A stretch of DNA of 35,223 nt, taken from positions 1 through 35,223 of the forward strand of contig NZ_WTEX01000025.1 of the NCBI RefSeq assembly GCF_009795845.1. The letters are read 5' to 3'. A model generated the notes under the pieces. It did no database searches and was not told the DNA's origin. It saw only the letters and a program-made list of their open reading frames with translations. The translations under genes were made by a program, and so were the position numbers. The DNA comes from Gilliamella sp. Lep-s35 (GTDB lineage Bacteria > Pseudomonadota > Gammaproteobacteria > Enterobacterales > Orbaceae). Below, in pieces: positions 28,091 to 35,122 of this stretch (the stretch's first letter is position 1; the number at the start of each line of letters is the position of its first letter).

Positions 28091-28145
28091 CCAAGTATCA
28101 TTTGCAAAAATTTTAATTAATCGATTTATTATAAGAAATGCAAAT

Positions 28146-28171
28146 AAAAACCCCAACGACTGGGGTTTTTT
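28146..28171. terminator. strong bidirectional rho-independent terminator
   Basis: AAAAACCCCA, five-base loop ACGAC, TGGGGTTTTTT. With T-tracts in both directions it can end ydcH from the left and the 26-codon ORF from the right. Confidence 0.92.
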
Positions 28172-28212
28172 ATTATCTTTAAACCTAACTGTTTATACTA
28201 ACCATTTTGGTT

Positions 28213-28293
28213 TTAATTATTTAGCTGCGCTTGTGCTTTTTTTTGTTTTCGGCTTTTGAGCAGCATAATTAAATTTTTATGCGGTTTTTTCAT
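28213..28293 (-). CDS. unlisted 26-residue basic small protein
   Basis: Reads MKKPHKNLIMLLKSRKQKKA then QAQLNN and stop. About a third of the residues are Lys, Arg or His, with a short hydrophobic patch (LIMLL). AAGGA lies eight to nine bases before the ATG. TATAAT on the minus strand at 28316-28321 gives a likely -10 box, though the -35 (ATTAAA at 17-base spacing) is poor. A strong terminator lies 42 bases downstream. It is therefore a complete small transcription unit between ydcH and mgtA. No family recognised; small basic peptides may bind ribosomes, RNA or membranes. It lies downstream of mgtA in the same direction but a hairpin and promoter separate them. Confidence 0.55.
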   Translation of the reverse strand: MKKPHKNLIMLLKSRKQKKAQAQLNN

Positions 28294-28426: not shown

Positions 28427-31138
28427 TTAAAACCATTGTCCGAAGCGTTTAATATAAATCCGTTTCATCAATTGTGCAACACAGCAATAACTAAATAAGG
28501 TTGCTAAAAGCCATGGAAAATATGACAAAGGTAATGGTTCTAACCCAATTAATCCACCAAGTGGAGAAAACGGAATATAAATACCCACAGCCATAATCAA
28601 CAAGGTCATCACAATAACAGGAAATGCCGCAGTGCTTTGCACAAATGGGATTTTTTGTGTTCTAAGCATGTGCACCACTAATGTTTGTGACAATAACCCT
28701 TCAATAAACCACCCCGAATGGAATAATGATTGCATTTCAACGCTATTAGCACTGAAAACAAACCACATTAATGCATACGTTGAGATGTCAAAAATAGATG
28801 ATGTTGGCCCAATCCAAATCATAAATCGCTTAATATTTAGCGCATCCCATTTGCGTGGTTTTTGTAAAAACTCATCATCCATTCTATCCCATGGTAATGA
28901 GAGCTGTGAAATATCATACAGCAAATTTTGAATGAGTAAATGTATCGCTAGCATAGGTAAAAATGGTAGAAACGCACTAGCAACCAATACTGAAAAAATA
29001 TTGCCAAAATTTGAACTTGCCGTCATATTTAAGTATTTCATGATATTACCAAAGGTTTCACGACCACATATTACACCTTCCTCTAATACCATTAGGCTCT
29101 TTTCAAGCAAAATAATATCGGCTGATTCTTTCGCGATATCAGTTGCGGTATCAACAGATATCCCAACATCGGCATCACGAAGTGCTGGCGCATCGTTTAT
29201 ACCATCACCTAAAAAGCCCACAGTATGGCCATTATCTTGTAATAATCGAATAATTCGTGATTTTTGCAATGGTGTTAATTTAGCAAAAATAGTACGTTGT
29301 TCGATTTGTATTTTAAGTTCGGCATCGTCCATTTTTTCAATTTCAGTGCCTAGTAGTGGTATACCTGGTTCTAAACCGACTTCTCGACACACTTTGATAG
29401 TAATAATTTCGTTATCACCTGTTAACACTTTAACACCCACACCATGTTCATTTAAAGCCGAAATTGCTTCAAATGCACTTTCTTTTGGTGGATCTAAAAA
29501 GGTTAAAAAACCACGAATTGCAAGGGCTGTTTCGTCTTGTACTGTATATTGCGCTTTTGTTTCGCTAGCGGGAATGTCTTTTATACCAACTGCTAACACT
29601 CTAAAGCCATCTTTGTTATAATCATGCGCTAAAGCAATTAATGCTTGTTTGCGTTTGTCATCTAATGGTAAATATTCGCCATTTTCATAAACATGACTTG
29701 CAATCGATAGCATTTCTTCAACAGCACCTTTACAAATCATTAAATGGTTATCACTATCATTTTGTACTACCACCGATAAACGACGACGCACAAAATCAAA
29801 CGGTAATTCATCAATTTTTTTGTATAAGCTAGCCCCCACCTTTTTCATACGGGTCTTTTCTTCGGCAAAACGGATAATCGCTTTATCCATCAGATTTTTC
29901 ATACCGCTTTGATAATAGCTGTTAAGCCAAGCTAGCTCTAAAACAGATGAATCGACCTGACCATTGATATCAAGATGATGCTCTAAAATGATTTTATCTT
30001 GTGTTAAGGTGCCTGTTTTATCGGTACATAAAATGTCCATTGCCCCAAAATTTTGGATAGCGTTAAGTCGTTTAACAACTACTTTGCGCTTTGCCATACC
30101 AACGGCGCCTTTAGCTAAATTGGCGCTTACAATCATTGGTAACATTTCTGGTGTTAAACCAACTGCTACCGCTAATGCAAACAATGCAGCATCGCCCCAA
30201 TCATTTTTTGAAAAACCATTAATAAAAAAGACAATTGGCACCATAATAAGCATAAAGCGAATAAGCAACCAACTTACACTATTAACACCACGATCAAACG
30301 AAGTTTCAGCGCGCGAACCAACGATTGACTTTGCCAACGAACCAAAATGCGTATCCGCACCGGTGGCAACTACAATGGCTGTAGCTGTTCCACTAACCAC
30401 ATTGGTGCCCATAAAACAGATATTATTGACATCAAGTACATTATCTTTAGCAATATCTGATTGTTCAATATTATCAGTCGTTTTTTGTGTTACCGCGCCC
30501 AACGTGTCATATTTTTCAACGGGGATTGATTCGCCAGTTAATACCGCTTGGCTAACAAATAAGTCTCTAGATTCAATCAACCGAATATCTGCCGGGATCA
30601 TGTCACCTGCGGATAAATAAACAATATCCCCTGGAACAATTTCACTTAATGGAATTTCAATGCGCTCAGGGGGCATATCTTTATGTGCACGACGCAATAC
30701 AGTTGCGGTTGTGCGAATCATTGATTTTAAAGCTTCGGCCGCTTTGTTCGATCTAAACTCCTGCCAAAAACGCAATAATCCACTAAGTGAGACCATCGTT
30801 AAAATAATAATAATCCCTGTTAAATCGGTCTCTTCACCATTTTGCAAAGGTAACCAAAAATCAGTCACAAAACTAACAATAGCTAATGCTAATAATACAA
30901 ATATAAATGGATTATTAAACGCCATTAATAGTTGTACTAAAACTGACGGTACCTTTTCACGGGCAACTTCATTTTTTCCATATGTTTCAATTCTCGACTT
31001 TGCACTTTCTTGTGTTAATCCTGAAAGGCTGGATTGAAATTTAGCTAAAATACTATCAAGACTGCTTTGGGCTTCGTTGATAGCTTTAATATCTACACTA
31101 TTTTGTGCTTTAGTTTTTGATGTATTTTTTGTCATCAT
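28427..31138 (-). CDS. mgtA: magnesium-translocating P-type ATPase
   Basis: 903 residues, P3B-type ATPase importing Mg2+ at low external concentration. Actuator TGES at 201-204, phosphorylated Asp373 in DILCTDKTGTLTQD, nucleotide-binding CKGAVEEML, hinge FLGDGINDAPALRDADVGIS, and ten membrane segments with the family ending PLSYFPWLLATLFSYC. PEMLPMI in TM4 is the cation-site motif. Very close to enteric MgtA/MgtB. The start is one of two adjacent ATGs (31138 or 31135), without a strong ribosome binding site. A 530-base 5' leader with two candidate leader peptides and a promoter lies upstream, implying post-transcriptional control. Confidence 0.96.
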   Translation of the reverse strand: MMTKNTSKTKAQNSVDIKAINEAQSSLDSILAKFQSSLSGLTQESAKSRIETYGKNEVAREKVPSVLVQLLMAFNNPFIFVLLALAIVSFVTDFWLPLQNGEETDLTGIIIILTMVSLSGLLRFWQEFRSNKAAEALKSMIRTTATVLRRAHKDMPPERIEIPLSEIVPGDIVYLSAGDMIPADIRLIESRDLFVSQAVLTGESIPVEKYDTLGAVTQKTTDNIEQSDIAKDNVLDVNNICFMGTNVVSGTATAIVVATGADTHFGSLAKSIVGSRAETSFDRGVNSVSWLLIRFMLIMVPIVFFINGFSKNDWGDAALFALAVAVGLTPEMLPMIVSANLAKGAVGMAKRKVVVKRLNAIQNFGAMDILCTDKTGTLTQDKIILEHHLDINGQVDSSVLELAWLNSYYQSGMKNLMDKAIIRFAEEKTRMKKVGASLYKKIDELPFDFVRRRLSVVVQNDSDNHLMICKGAVEEMLSIASHVYENGEYLPLDDKRKQALIALAHDYNKDGFRVLAVGIKDIPASETKAQYTVQDETALAIRGFLTFLDPPKESAFEAISALNEHGVGVKVLTGDNEIITIKVCREVGLEPGIPLLGTEIEKMDDAELKIQIEQRTIFAKLTPLQKSRIIRLLQDNGHTVGFLGDGINDAPALRDADVGISVDTATDIAKESADIILLEKSLMVLEEGVICGRETFGNIMKYLNMTASSNFGNIFSVLVASAFLPFLPMLAIHLLIQNLLYDISQLSLPWDRMDDEFLQKPRKWDALNIKRFMIWIGPTSSIFDISTYALMWFVFSANSVEMQSLFHSGWFIEGLLSQTLVVHMLRTQKIPFVQSTAAFPVIVMTLLIMAVGIYIPFSPLGGLIGLEPLPLSYFPWLLATLFSYCCVAQLMKRIYIKRFGQWF

Positions 31139-31317
31139 AAGTACCTATATTCATAATTTTGGCAAAAGTAGGCCAACTTATTGTTACTAAATAACAATAA
31201 ATAATTAAATTTTGTGATTAGCTAAAATTTAGTGCATAGCAAAATTAGCCTGTAAAGCTATTTTGTATAGCTTGGGCTGAGCATTAAATTTAATTAGCAA
31301 CAGAATTAATTAAGAAT

Positions 31318-31431
31318 TTAGATACAACTCGGTGGTTCTAAATGTTTTTCTGAAAGGTGCAAAATACACTGCATAAAGCTGTGTGCACATTGATGTTTTG
31401 AATTTGTGTGATAGCGTGTAAAAAAATGCAT
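31318..31431 (-). CDS. candidate leader peptide 2 of mgtA (37 residues)
   Basis: Reads MHFFTRYHTNSKHQCAHSFM, then QCILHLSEKHLEPPSCI and stop. GGTGA lies five bases before the ATG. It has six His and three Cys codons and ends LEPPSCI; acidic residues followed by prolines are the type of sequence that makes ribosomes pause or drop off in MgtL. Lies 180 bases before mgtA, after the hairpin at 31435-31472. No homologue recognised; it could be chance in a leader with few stops. Confidence 0.4.
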   Translation of the reverse strand: MHFFTRYHTNSKHQCAHSFMQCILHLSEKHLEPPSCI

Positions 31432-31434
31432 ATC

Positions 31435-31472
31435 GTTCACCGTTACCGTTTTATCAATTTCGGTTTGTGAAC
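31435..31472 (-). promoter_or_regulatory. RNA hairpin in mgtA leader
   Basis: On the minus strand GTTCAC-AA-ACCG, 12-base loop, CGGT-AACG-GTGAAC: a stem with one internal loop. The 3' arm contains GGTGA, the ribosome binding site of leader peptide 2, so folding would hide it. Position just after leader peptide 1 suits translation-coupled switching. Confidence 0.4.
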
Positions 31473-31500
31473 TGAAAAAATGATGATTTAGACAGGTTCG

Positions 31501-31566
31501 TTAACCGATAATGATGTGTTTAAATTTATCTCCCCGCATTTTGGGGTGACCCGATTGAGTGTCCAT
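31501..31566 (-). CDS. candidate leader peptide 1 of mgtA (21 residues)
   Basis: Reads MDTQSGHPKMRGDKFKHIII then G and stop. AGGAGA at 31570-31575 is a near-perfect ribosome binding site four bases before the ATG, the best in the leader, which makes translation very likely. The coding region itself holds a CCCC/GGGG hairpin. It stands about 100 bases after the predicted transcript start and 360 bases before mgtA. Confidence 0.5.
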   Translation of the reverse strand: MDTQSGHPKMRGDKFKHIIIG

Positions 31567-32085
31567 ATTTCTCCTGTAAATTGAACTCTACACTTTGTAT
31601 TTCAACTTTTCTTCACCCTCATTTTTAGTTTTCATAATAACTAAAAAAGGAAAAAAAGCTCAAAAGGCGCGCATTTTATACGCTTTTAAGAAATAAAAGT
31701 CAATCTATAAAGACATAAAAAAGTGATAATTATTGAAAAACAGCACTTATCGTTATTTTTATCTTCATGATTGATTAGTTTGCACTCCATAAAAAGACTA
31801 TAATTTAACGTTGAGCACAACCTATAGTCATCAGGTTGATTATATAATGTGGCAAGTTGTCTTGTTTAGTCTATTTAAGCAAAAAAACAATTAACTGTTT
31901 GTAAAATTTTCATCAAAAAGTTTTAGAAAACTATCTATTTCAATTTAAAACACTTTTCCATAATGTGTTTATTGATAAAACGCTTTTTTAACTATCTAAG
32001 ATTATTCAATAATAAAATTAAATTTTCGATTTTAATAAACAAAATAGATAGGCTAACCACACATTGATTTGTTTGTATCTAACCA
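31567..32085. other. mgtA promoter region and topB-mgtA spacer
   Basis: The long gap between topB and mgtA. The right part (31704-32085) is A/T-rich, with CAACCT/AGGTTG forming a small hairpin at 31818-31838 and no clear terminator for topB. The left part holds the mgtA promoter and, at 31622-31647, a nine-bp hairpin TTTTTAGTT/AACTAAAAA in the early leader. A 15-codon ORF (MKTKNEGEEKLKYKV, minus strand, ATG near 31635) has no ribosome binding site. Confidence 0.5.
31675..31703 (-). promoter_or_regulatory. sigma-70 promoter of mgtA transcript
   Basis: Minus strand TTGACT (31698-31703), 17-base spacer, TATAAA (31675-31680). The best-formed promoter in the window. It predicts a 5' untranslated leader of roughly 530 bases before mgtA. 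No convincing pair of (T/G)GTTTA PhoP half-sites was found upstream. Confidence 0.65.
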
Positions 32086-33978
32086 TTAGGCACAAATATT
32101 TAACCTTGCATTTTTTAACTGATTAACAAGATCTAATAGTGATAAATTAAGTTGATGCATAAATTGTTGGTACGAAAATGTTTTTTTACTAATTTCATCC
32201 AACTGTAATTCCCAATGGGCGGTCATATCGGGCATGGACATTATATCAGGTAGCGATAAAATTAGGTTTTTACCCACCTCGGTTGAGCGTATTGCTTTAC
32301 CTTGGCGAGTCAAGAACTGACGTTTAAACAACAACTCAATAATACCAGCCCTTGTTGCTTCTGTACCTAAACCATCGGTTTCGCGCAGTATTTTTTTAAT
32401 TTCAGGATCTTTAACAAATCGGGCAATCCCCGTCATTGCCGACAACAGTGTTGCATCGGTAAATGGCCTTGGTGGTTGGGTTTCTTTGCTAAGCAGTTCA
32501 GTATCAATACATTGCACTGTTTCACCCTTTTTAACTAATTTAGTTAATAAACTATTACTTTCATTATCGTCGTTATTAGCTTCTATTTGATTGTTTTTAT
32601 TTCGAAATAAAACCTTCCAACCTTCATCAAGCATTTGGTTAGCTTTAGAAATAAATTTTCCACCTTGAATATCAACATCAATTTGCAATTCAGCATATTT
32701 ATATGCTGGATAAAATTGAGCTAAATATTGCGTTGCAACGGCTTGATAAACGGCTTTTTCGTTAACTGATAGGTTATCCATTTTTGCTTTACGCAAGGTT
32801 GGAATAATAGCGTGGTGCGCCTCTACTTTTTTGTCATTCCACGCTTTAGTGCGTAAAGTGTAATCAGCATGACTAATTGCGGTTTGCAGTTCTGGACAAT
32901 TATTTTCAATGGCAGACTTTACCCCCGTAATTTGTTTTAAGTGTTCTTCAGGCAAAAAGCGACAGTCTGATCTTGGATAGGTAATTAATTTGTGTTTTTC
33001 ATATAACGATTGACAAACATCAAGCACATCTTGAGCACTCAGCCCATTTTTTTTAGCCATCTCAATTTGCAGTGCCGATAAATTAAATGGCATTGGTGGG
33101 GCAAGTTCTTTCTTTTTATTACTAACTTTATCAATTTTTCCTGATTGATTATTAATGCGTTGGCAAACATTTTCGGCCAATTTTTTAACTAAAACACGCC
33201 CTTCCTCATCCAGATAAGGCGCGCAAGCTTCGCTAGGTTGCCATTTGGCTTTGAAGATTTCATTATCTTGTGTTTGTAGCACGGCAAAAACTTCATAAAA
33301 GGGTTTAGGTACAAATTGCGCTATATCTAAATCACGCCTAACAACCAATCCTAAAATAGGCGTTTGTACTCGCCCAATTGACAACACTCCCCGATAACCG
33401 TTTTTTTGTCCAACAATAGTACAAAGTCGACTCATATTGATACCATAAAGCCAATCTGCTCGTGCTCTTGCCAAAGCCGAAGTAGACAAAGGAATAAAAT
33501 CTTGGTTACTGCGTAATTGCTGTAATGACTTTTCAACAGCGTTGGCATTCAAGTCACTGATCAAACAGCGCTTTATTGCTTTGCGTTTACTTGGTGGTAA
33601 TTGGCAATAATTTAAGACTTCATCAACCAACAACTGCCCTTCTCTATCTGGGTCACCTGCATGCACAATCTGATCGGCCGATTTAATTAGATCCACCAAA
33701 ATATCAAACTGTTTTTGTGTCGTATTTTTTGGGGTTAATATCCACTTTTCAGGCACGATGGGTAAATCGTTAATTGCCCACTTTTTATATCGCTGATCAT
33801 AAACTTCTGGCGTGGCTTGCTCAAGCAAGTGCCCAATACACCAGCTCACCACATCACCATTACTTGCTTTAATAAAACCATTACCTTTTTGATGAGGTTT
33901 TGGTAACACATCAGCAATAGCCCTAGCTAAACTAGGTTTTTCAGCAATAAATAGACGATAGGGCTGATTAGATCGCAT
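32086..33978 (-). CDS. topB: DNA topoisomerase III
   Basis: Type IA topoisomerase that decatenates replication intermediates. TOPRIM domain at the N-terminus (LFIAEKPSLARAIADVLPKP; acidic triad Asp109, Asp111, Glu113 in GDPDREG), catalytic Tyr334 in LITYPRSDCR, then DDKKVEAHHAIIPT-type loop (NDKKVEAHHAIIPT) and TQPPRPFTDATLLSAM with GLGTEATRAGIIELLFK. 630 residues: it lacks the basic C-terminal tail of E. coli TopB (653). No clear ribosome binding site before the ATG; the extra six N-terminal residues compared with E. coli may not be translated as drawn. Confidence 0.96.
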   Translation of the reverse strand: MRSNQPYRLFIAEKPSLARAIADVLPKPHQKGNGFIKASNGDVVSWCIGHLLEQATPEVYDQRYKKWAINDLPIVPEKWILTPKNTTQKQFDILVDLIKSADQIVHAGDPDREGQLLVDEVLNYCQLPPSKRKAIKRCLISDLNANAVEKSLQQLRSNQDFIPLSTSALARARADWLYGINMSRLCTIVGQKNGYRGVLSIGRVQTPILGLVVRRDLDIAQFVPKPFYEVFAVLQTQDNEIFKAKWQPSEACAPYLDEEGRVLVKKLAENVCQRINNQSGKIDKVSNKKKELAPPMPFNLSALQIEMAKKNGLSAQDVLDVCQSLYEKHKLITYPRSDCRFLPEEHLKQITGVKSAIENNCPELQTAISHADYTLRTKAWNDKKVEAHHAIIPTLRKAKMDNLSVNEKAVYQAVATQYLAQFYPAYKYAELQIDVDIQGGKFISKANQMLDEGWKVLFRNKNNQIEANNDDNESNSLLTKLVKKGETVQCIDTELLSKETQPPRPFTDATLLSAMTGIARFVKDPEIKKILRETDGLGTEATRAGIIELLFKRQFLTRQGKAIRSTEVGKNLILSLPDIMSMPDMTAHWELQLDEISKKTFSYQQFMHQLNLSLLDLVNQLKNARLNICA

Positions 33979-34050: not shown

Positions 34051-35052
34051 TTACCACCATTTTTTATATTTAAGCCAAATAACTGAAATAACACAAATAA
34101 TAACAAGCAGTAATATCAATCCAACAAAAGACCAACCTTCGCTACTAAAAGGAATACCCGCTAAATTGACACCAAGTAAACTGGTTAAAAATGTAATTGG
34201 TGTAAAAATAATAGTAAATAGCGACATTAAGTAAATTCGTTTATTGGTTGATTCGGCCAAAAAGCTATTAATCTGCTCCATAATTGAAGCTAACCGCAAC
34301 AAACAGCTATCGATATCTGATACATAATGATTTTGTTGATAAGAAATATCATGCAACCGTTGACGATCGTTATCATCAATCCATGATATTCTTTCAGTCG
34401 AAATTTTCACAAAAATATCACGTTGTGGCGACAATAATCGGCGTAAAACAATCAATTGTTTACGAACCCGACCGATCTCTTTATAAGAAAAGATACGTTG
34501 GTTTAAAACAGATTCCTCTAACTTAATGATTTTATTGTGAACACTATCAAAAGATAAGTTAACTTGATCACTAATTAAATCCGACATTTGAATCAACCAA
34601 TCGGCCACATCCACAGGGCCAATGCCCTTTTCTAAGTGATCTTTTAATTCCGCAATAGCAGAAATTTGTTGATGCCGAGTTGAAATGATCATGTTATCGG
34701 TAATAAAAAAACGAAAAGTAACAATAGGATCTGGAAGTTCATTGGGAATAAAATTAACGCCTTTTAACACGACTAAAACGCCCGACTCAAAACGAATCTC
34801 TTTGGATATTTGATTTGGTTTTACCAACTCATTTTTAATTAAATCAGGAACTAGGTTTGTGGTATTTATCCAATTAACAGTTTCTTGTTTAGCAAAGTCT
34901 AAATGAATCCAAAATGGTTGCGAAACAGAAGGCACACTATGTTCATTAAGCGGTATAGCTTTACCTTTACCATCTAACTGACAGCAAAAAGCTGGGTTAG
35001 CCTCTAGAAGATGAGAAACAGAAATAATACCTTCGCTATTTTGATTCGTCAT
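34051..35052 (-). CDS. zntB: CorA-family zinc transporter ZntB
   Basis: 333 residues. A large cytoplasmic N-terminal domain with a long helix (LRKQLIVLRR-type block, here VRKQLIVLRRLLSPQRDIF), then two C-terminal membrane helices with the pore signature GVNLAGIP, as in ZntB (E. coli GVNLGGIP); CorA itself has GMN followed by a different loop. Moves Zn2+ across the inner membrane. The start at ATG 35052 is chosen since GGAG lies six bases upstream; the upstream ATG at 35064 overlaps that site. Sits upstream of topB in the same direction, 72 bases apart. Confidence 0.92.
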   Translation of the reverse strand: MTNQNSEGIISVSHLLEANPAFCCQLDGKGKAIPLNEHSVPSVSQPFWIHLDFAKQETVNWINTTNLVPDLIKNELVKPNQISKEIRFESGVLVVLKGVNFIPNELPDPIVTFRFFITDNMIISTRHQQISAIAELKDHLEKGIGPVDVADWLIQMSDLISDQVNLSFDSVHNKIIKLEESVLNQRIFSYKEIGRVRKQLIVLRRLLSPQRDIFVKISTERISWIDDNDRQRLHDISYQQNHYVSDIDSCLLRLASIMEQINSFLAESTNKRIYLMSLFTIIFTPITFLTSLLGVNLAGIPFSSEGWSFVGLILLLVIICVISVIWLKYKKWW

Positions 35053-35122
35053 TACCAGCTCCATTTGTTATAGTTTTTTAAATTATATACTGAATTTAGA
35101 TTAAAAAGGATCTACTAATTAA

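Follow-up and report, generated by a model that had tools for sequence, protein, structure and literature searches.

The locus analyzed here raises the question of how a leader with two short open reading frames (ORFs) may control the gene of a Mg2+ pump in bacteria in which the PhoQ sensor domain was not detected (0 of 44 Orbaceae genomes, with a positive E. coli control). The reading that we favour, and to which we give a little better than an even chance, is that the MgtB-type Mg2+ pump is preceded by a tandem attenuator of the MgtM/MgtP type whose two units have been rewired to act in series, as a relay. The analysis was based on a stretch of 35,223 nt of Gilliamella sp. Lep-s35 (NZ_WTEX01000025.1; the genome itself is labelled G000), which is referred to as the window and whose numbering is used throughout. 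The pump gene and all features of the leader are located on the minus strand (-).

28427..31138 (-): gene of an MgtB-like P-type Mg2+ ATPase, identified from its sequence and its relatives

A preliminary description of this DNA named the gene mgtA. That name was not retained, as the encoded protein, judged by sequence identity, is nearer to MgtB-type than to MgtA-type pumps: it shares 68% identity with one of the two copies found in genome G121 and 55% with the second, which goes with an MgtL-type peptide (MDPDPTPHPRWSNLSFR). The start codon common to relatives is the ATG at 31135 (-), and the named relatives, with pump proteins 96-99% identical, are Gilliamella species. The pump gene was found in 41 of the 44 Orbaceae genomes (those without it are G039, G041 and G043), and a gene of the MgtC family in only one of them (G043, a genome without such a pump). 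Two genes upstream of the pump gene, at 34051-35064 (-), there is a divalent metal transporter gene, which we take to be of the CorA/ZntB type from its GVN-type end. A sub-threshold match to RF01770 (rimP leader; 31.3 bits, cut-off 47) was also recorded, at 28120-28243 (+).

Transcription of the leader would begin at a near-consensus promoter, which had been proposed before and was confirmed at 31703-31675 (-):

31675..31703 (-): promoter TTGACT-17-TATAAA, with a GC-rich stretch after the -10 box (from the sequence and 41/41 leaders)

This promoter was missed by the automatic scan, which required a -10 box ending in T, and the more general form TTGANN-(17 or 18)-TATANN is present at the matching place in 41/41 Orbaceae leaders. 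Since the promoter is so close to the consensus, regulation may rest largely in the leader. Upstream of the promoter (at about 31748-31732 (-)), a AAGTGCTGTTTTTAAGC-like block is kept in many Gilliamella leaders, and it is perhaps an activator site or an UP element.

The leader precedes the pump gene in every one of the 41 Orbaceae genomes having that gene. A covariance model (R1), constructed from the block extending from ORF1 to the start of ORF2, found no leader in the three (of 44) Orbaceae genomes lacking the pump gene, and when 394 genomes of the order were searched with stricter filters it matched 32, every one of them from Orbaceae. When applied at E<=10 to 16 Enterobacterales pump loci, R1 gave one weak match only (E 0.42, 15.5 bits). 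The change rate per site is lower in the leader than in the region upstream of the promoter, and this, together with the confinement of R1 matches to Orbaceae, identifies the leader as more than a product of chance. Weak second matches of R1 were seen in G001, G030, G032, G033 and G034. The second matches L255 and L256 were rejected as chance hits, the former lying over the start of an unrelated 94-codon gene (presumably zapA-like) and the latter being a near-identical sequence. The start context GGTGAACG (allowing at most 1 mismatch, within 700 bases) was found only in the four Orbaceae among 59 scanned loci (L082-L140, from Pseudomonas, Mesorhizobium, Phyllobacterium and these four Orbaceae). 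The 529-base leader folds exceptionally well (z -2.69, 0/100 shuffles equally good), and the 151-base block alone folds unexceptionally (z -1.27, 21/200 shuffles equally good). A literature search returned nothing combining mgtA, leader and Gilliamella, and the matches for Gilliamella and leader peptide concern, by their titles and the opening lines of their abstracts, other subjects.

The first of the two ORFs, with its AGGAG site, was confirmed at 31566-31501 (-), and it is accompanied by the following features:

31571..31577 (-): ribosome-binding site of ORF1, ACAGGAG (RNAalifold on alignment A1)
31501..31566 (-): ORF1 (MDTQSGHPKMRGDKFKHIIIG), 21 codons, with MgtM-like position and start (from the sequence and conservation of the start in 41/41 leaders)
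31532..31546 (-): small hairpin CCCC (31546-31543)/GGGG (31535-31532) inside ORF1, with a loop of variable length (leader alignment)

No variation was seen in 41/41 leaders at the ATG, at Pro8 (CCC) or at the first two bases of the Ser5 codon; codon 7 is varied (His, Asn, Asp, Pro or Gln), and G040 has Asn in place of the acidic residue 2. In 35 leaders, ORF1 shows 27/21/43 changes at codon positions 1/2/3. It had been anticipated that both ORFs and their ribosome-binding sites would be kept in relatives. ORF2 and the beginning of ORF1 bear this out (41/41), unlike the tail of ORF1, whose frame differs in 9/41 leaders and runs there to a later stop, 7-12 nt before the segment designated 2 below; the other 32 ORF1s stop 24-30 nt before that segment. 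The fact that the stop is kept within a short interval, and the tail peptide is not, is taken here as a sign of action through the position of the ribosome. The ribosome-binding site of ORF1 might itself be hidden, as its ACAGG (31577-31573) can pair with CCTGT (31496-31492), a pairing in which only one-sided G-U changes were seen. Another sequence able to pair with this site is a pyrimidine run, TTTTTTC, at 31480-31474 (-), just before segment 2, which is kept in most species and replaced by CTCTCTT in G027.

The second ORF, with its GGTGA site, was likewise found where it had been described (31431-31318 (-)), as was the Glu-Pro-Pro near its end:

31318..31431 (-): ORF2 (MHFFTRYHTNSKHQCAHSFMQCILHLSEKHLEPPSCI), 37 codons, GGTGA site (coding constraint)
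31330..31338 (-): Glu-Pro-Pro codons of ORF2 (codons 32-34), predicted ribosome pause site (41/41 leaders)

ORF2 is clearly under coding constraint, with 59/37/117 changes at codon positions 1/2/3 in the 35 Gilliamella-group leaders (of 41). It ends with Glu-Pro-Pro and 3-4 further codons in 41/41 leaders, and within the Glu-Pro-Pro codons changes are restricted to third positions (0,0,3; 0,0,4; 0,0,4 in the 35 leaders). The following Ser-Cys-Ile-stop shows scarcely any change in the same leaders, third positions included, which is expected if those bases also pair. Pausing at diprolines (PPX) is described as context-dependent (PMC4140641), in a text from which the term EPP is absent.

The window ORF2 contains six His and three Cys residues, and it had therefore been suggested that the peptide senses another metal or amino-acid charging at His/Cys codons. 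Such a role is very improbable, because in the 23 (of 41) peptides that were aligned only M1, E, P and P are invariant (Y, L and S nearly so), and His/Cys positions are replaced in several relatives. It could also be proposed that the RNA is the direct sensor, binding Mg2+ or a metabolite near ORF1, and that the ORFs merely report its state. The strong conservation of bases in the first eight codons of ORF1 and in the CCCC/GGGG hairpin, combined with a tail frame that is not conserved, is in line with this proposal; however, ORF2 is protein-coding, its changes at Glu-Pro-Pro are purely synonymous, and neither the window stretch nor any of nine relatives gave a match to a known riboswitch at E<=1. 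A direct RNA sensor is thus regarded as a poor candidate, albeit a better one than sensing by His and Cys.

Between the two ORFs, three segments can form two mutually exclusive pairings (1:2 and 2:3), and by prediction ORF1 ends within them:

31496..31508 (-): segment 1 (TCGGTTAACGAAC), overlapping the ORF1 stop and able to pair with segment 2 (alignment, folding)
31460..31472 (-): segment 2 (GTTCACAAACCGA), common to both alternative stems (GTTCAC invariant in 41/41 leaders)
31435..31448 (-): segment 3 (CGGTAACGGTGAAC), holding the ORF2 site GGTGA (31441-31437) and pairing with segment 2 (alignment, folding)

The 2:3 hairpin, GTTCAC (31472-31467)/GTGAAC (31440-31435) with an inner CCG/CGG, agrees with the one noted in the preliminary description, and its 12 outer bases are identical in 41/41 leaders. 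Covariation, which had been proposed as a check of the stem at 31435-31472, was not found, and RNAalifold gave no pair with a two-sided change in the hairpin block; as the outer pairs never vary, this result neither supports nor refutes the stem. In the case of the 1:2 pairing, 93.3% of cells are paired, compared with 17-61% in slid controls, and against shuffles there is no excess of covariation (232/500) and little excess of pairing (42/500).

Folding predictions (n=41) revealed how the position of a ribosome on ORF1 could shift the balance between these stems. In RNA ending before segment 3, the GTTC of segment 2 pairs with the region of the ORF1 stop (mean 0.96). In short-RNA folding, the mean probability of 2:3 is 0.39 in the free RNA; placing a ribosome at the ORF1 stop raises it to 0.90, and masking the first 12 codons of ORF1 lowers it to 0.04. 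Several leaders depart from this pattern: under short-RNA folding, G040 never forms 2:3, G008 and G027 form it poorly when a ribosome occupies the ORF1 stop, and in G037, G038 and G042 its probability remains near one half when the ORF1 start is masked. In longer RNA, the effect of ORF1 on the accessibility of the ORF2 site is small (means 0.19 vs 0.29); the position near codon 8 of ORF1 gives the higher accessibility in 26 and the lower in 4 of the 41 leaders. Of six Enterobacterales leaders examined, the five that were evaluated (all but L218) have the same predicted 1:2/2:3 logic at the MgtM stop.

At the other end of ORF2, a second, long-range complementarity connects the ORF with the pump gene:

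31309..31325 (-): last codons of ORF2, its stop and the next bases (core GTATCTA, 31325-31319), complementary to the pump site (folding, duplexes)
31141..31147 (-): region of the pump ribosome-binding site, TAGGTAC (AGGTAC invariant in the 34/41 leaders aligned)

RNAalifold, run on alignment A3 (34 of the 41 leaders; G027 and the six non-Gilliamella leaders were left out), pairs GTATCTA with TAGGTAC. Six of these seven pairs are identical in 34/34 leaders, and the seventh is altered in two. When all 41 leaders are considered (30 distinct rows), 200 of the 210 cells of the core are paired, the outermost pair being G-C, G-U or A-U across genera, and two-sided changes are confined to a single pair, where two of the distinct rows (G037 and G040) have them. 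The support from covariation is weak for both key stems (2:3 and the long-range core), because they hardly vary. The helix reaches up to 18 pairs in a single species (G008), and it is included in the minimum-energy fold of the window leader, as read from the bracket line. In 27/41 leaders, the duplex formed within the species is better than 95% or more of the shuffles, and 14/41 miss the 5% level; the duplex is no better than shuffles in G036 and G042, and weak in G040, G001, G013 and G033 (135-154 of 600 shuffles equally good). Among 15 related representatives, own duplexes are more stable than swapped ones (mean -11.4 vs -9.7 kcal/mol, permutation p 0.00055).

When a ribosome paused at Glu-Pro-Pro was represented by a mask, the predicted accessibility of the pump site increased in 36/41 leaders, from a mean of 0.08 to a mean of 0.30, a value that indicates a predicted shift and not a full opening of the site. 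No effect was seen in the remaining five (G018, G026, G036, G040 and G042), and a mask in the middle of ORF2 raised the predicted accessibility in just 3/41 leaders. The stop of ORF2 lies inside the pairing sequence, and this would also suit simple translational coupling, in which ribosomes finishing ORF2 melt the pump site with neither a pause nor a signal. Coupling of this kind is improbable as a full explanation, since Glu-Pro-Pro is kept in 41/41 leaders while most of ORF2 drifts, and coupling alone would have no need for that motif.

Closer to the pump gene, a further hairpin was distinguished:

31178..31200 (-): hairpin TTATTGTTA/TAACAATAA just before the pump gene (pair counts in 34/41 leaders)

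In this hairpin (31200-31178), 85.1% of cells are paired and 26 cells show two-sided changes, a number reached by 0/500 shuffles, with slid versions giving 2-7; the covarying pairs and the pair types are not beyond those of shuffles (136/500 and 131/500, respectively). These counts, from 34 of the 41 leaders, provide moderate support for a selected RNA structure at this site.

The features described above may be combined into a serial relay, in which completion of the first peptide controls initiation of the second, and pausing in the second directly unmasks the pump site. We put this order of control forward tentatively, as a proposal that falls somewhat short of an even chance. Transcription having begun at the promoter, translation of ORF1 to its stop would bring a ribosome over segment 1, the 2:3 hairpin would form and the ORF2 site would be hidden, so that ORF2 and the pump would both remain off. 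If the ribosome gave up ORF1 early or came to a halt within its conserved first codons (a situation probably brought about by low Mg2+), 1:2 would pair and ORF2 would be translated. A ribosome would then pause at Glu-Pro-Pro, with three codons left before the ORF2 stop, and would cover the sequence that otherwise pairs with the pump site, so that the pump would be made. Of this scheme, the conservation, the coding constraint, the complementary sequences and the predicted folds are shown by the analysis, and the pausing, the succession of steps, the signal and any part of Rho on the C-rich ORF2 are deduced from them. The input, we infer, is likely to be the quality of translation at ORF1 and at Glu-Pro-Pro, and hence Mg2+, proline charging or EF-P activity.

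As regards the output, Rho-dependent termination is a serious rival to the relay, given that C exceeds G in ORF2 in 41/41 leaders and that the scan found no intrinsic-terminator-like site on the minus strand of 31100-32150. According to this explanation, untranslated, C-rich ORF2 RNA would load Rho, and transcription would be terminated ahead of the pump gene; ribosomes that translate ORF2 or pause on it would shield the RNA, and pairing of the pump site would be secondary. A precedent is offered by MgtL of mgtA, whose incomplete translation turns the gene on and which is described as acting via a Rho-dependent terminator (PMC11282234). Nevertheless, in so short a peptide gene the codons may by themselves account for the C/G bias, the stretch with the best C/G value falls outside ORF2 in several genomes, and the near-invariant last codons of ORF2 and the pump TAGGTAC are left unexplained. 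We therefore consider Rho unlikely to be the main output, though clearly more probable than coupling alone.

Returning to the tandem attenuator, the order of parts in the Orbaceae leader is the same as in mgtC_leader (RF02887), which comprises MgtM and MgtP. In both, two short ORFs precede a Mg2+-transporter gene or operon and, by prediction, the stop codon of the first ORF lies in an alternative stem; in the RF02887-positive loci, the first ORF starts with MD.. after AGGAG. In 41/41 Orbaceae leaders, the second of the two short ORFs has consecutive Pro codons near its end, and this diproline stands 3-4 codons before the stop, as in MgtP-type ORFs (cf. PPPRQA and PPPFRR). In the four MgtB-type Enterobacterales loci that match RF02887, MgtM starts UUG-GAC-AGU-CAC-CC and the MgtP-like ORF ends with PPP and three or four residues; in the window, the start of ORF1 resembles that of MgtM (TGGACA-N-TCA after AGGAG; MDTQSGHP vs MDSHP). 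Thus, the view of the preliminary description that this is a two-peptide leader with hairpins able to hide ribosome-binding sites, as in enteric Mg2+-transporter leaders, is supported, but its statement that the peptides are unlike those described is not supported, in that ORF1 starts like MgtM and ORF2 has an MgtP-like diproline near its stop.

How far this likeness reflects ancestry is another matter. The pattern AGGAG-N(4-9)-TGGACANTCA matched 50 of 295 genomes (the reversed control pattern, 14), and its matches comprise the leader itself in 15 of 22 Orbaceae, an mgtB-linked leader in four genomes (G121, G137, G266 and G292) and sites in 31 other genomes, so the shared start motif is too unspecific to prove common descent. 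Moreover, the amino-acid sequence of MgtM is stated to be not conserved (2012 paper, PMC3641672), which makes the likeness of the ORF1 start weak evidence of descent. RF02887 was positive at 4/4 of the Enterobacterales MgtB-type loci tested; it exceeded the cut-off in 0/44 Orbaceae genomes, with no weaker match at the leader among those listed, and a search of the window stretch and of nine relatives at E<=1 did not return it. The Orbaceae leader is accordingly treated as one that works like an MgtM/MgtP leader and may descend from it, and it is not filed as a member of RF02887.

The mgtCBR leader of Salmonella is described as having two ORFs that respond to independent, additive signals, with the last codons of MgtP placed in a stem, and the ribosome-binding site of mgtC can be hidden in its stem-loop D (PMC3641672). 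The start codon of mgtM is UUG (PMC6908480); the operon is derepressed when mgtM is not translated, and its expression falls when mgtP is not translated (PMC6908480, PMC3641672). Unlike in Salmonella, in Orbaceae (i) the alternative stem of ORF1 holds the ribosome-binding site of ORF2 itself, (ii) the end of ORF2 can pair directly with the ribosome-binding site of the pump, and (iii) the context is one of an MgtC-family gene in 1/44 genomes and no detected PhoQ sensor. A PhoP/PhoQ-controlled promoter and a response to ATP and proline also characterize the MgtM/MgtP type of attenuator, and the former does not agree with the lack of PhoQ sensor matches in Orbaceae (0/44). ORF2 also differs from MgtP-type ORFs in having 28-40 codons across Orbaceae, with Glu-Pro-Pro, compared with 15-17 codons and PPP. 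Since the ORF1 stem encloses the ORF2 site and the ORF2 end faces the pump site, a series circuit is predicted. As is proposed here for ORF2, in SecM-secA and in Erm-type attenuation the ribosome-binding site of the next gene is freed by a ribosome that pauses on a leader ORF; their peptides, genes and signals are, however, unrelated to those of the Orbaceae leader.

If the relay is correct, what are two independent attenuators in Salmonella would have become, in symbionts of the insect gut, an in-series gate sensing Mg2+ without PhoPQ. It would show the form of the leader of a Salmonella virulence operon in bee symbionts with no detected PhoQ sensor, and would indicate that attenuators can be wired in series, with completion of one peptide gating the other. 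It would also offer a system in which control of a Mg2+ pump by pausing at a diproline can be tested directly, and in which natural variants (ORF1 tails in other frames, and pairings that are altered in other genera) allow peptide effects to be told apart from RNA effects.

Two other leader peptides of Mg2+ pumps are of interest for comparison. MgtL resembles the system analyzed here in lying upstream of a Mg2+ P-type pump, but it is a single ORF with early acidic and Pro codons (EPDP), and ORF1 of Orbaceae (MDTQSGHP or similar) has no EPDP-type motif. MgtQ, encoded between mgtC and mgtB of Salmonella, has Asp2 and, inside a stem, a Pro codon CCC, and it is through the translation state of this small ORF that the ribosome-binding site of mgtB is freed (PMC8092293). 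It is a single 8-codon ORF acting through destabilisation by an acidic residue, whereas the ORF facing the pump in Orbaceae is long and ends with Glu-Pro-Pro. MgtQ-like short ORFs were also observed within about 260 bases upstream of MgtB-type genes at L214, L224, L225, L226, L230 and L232, and the starts of such ORFs in other genera of the order are MDEHP.., MDDHP.., MDDIPPP.. and MDDAPPP... At L217, in another family, a leader ORF of 46 codons (starting with MDDDPSG) is located 279 bases upstream of the pump gene.
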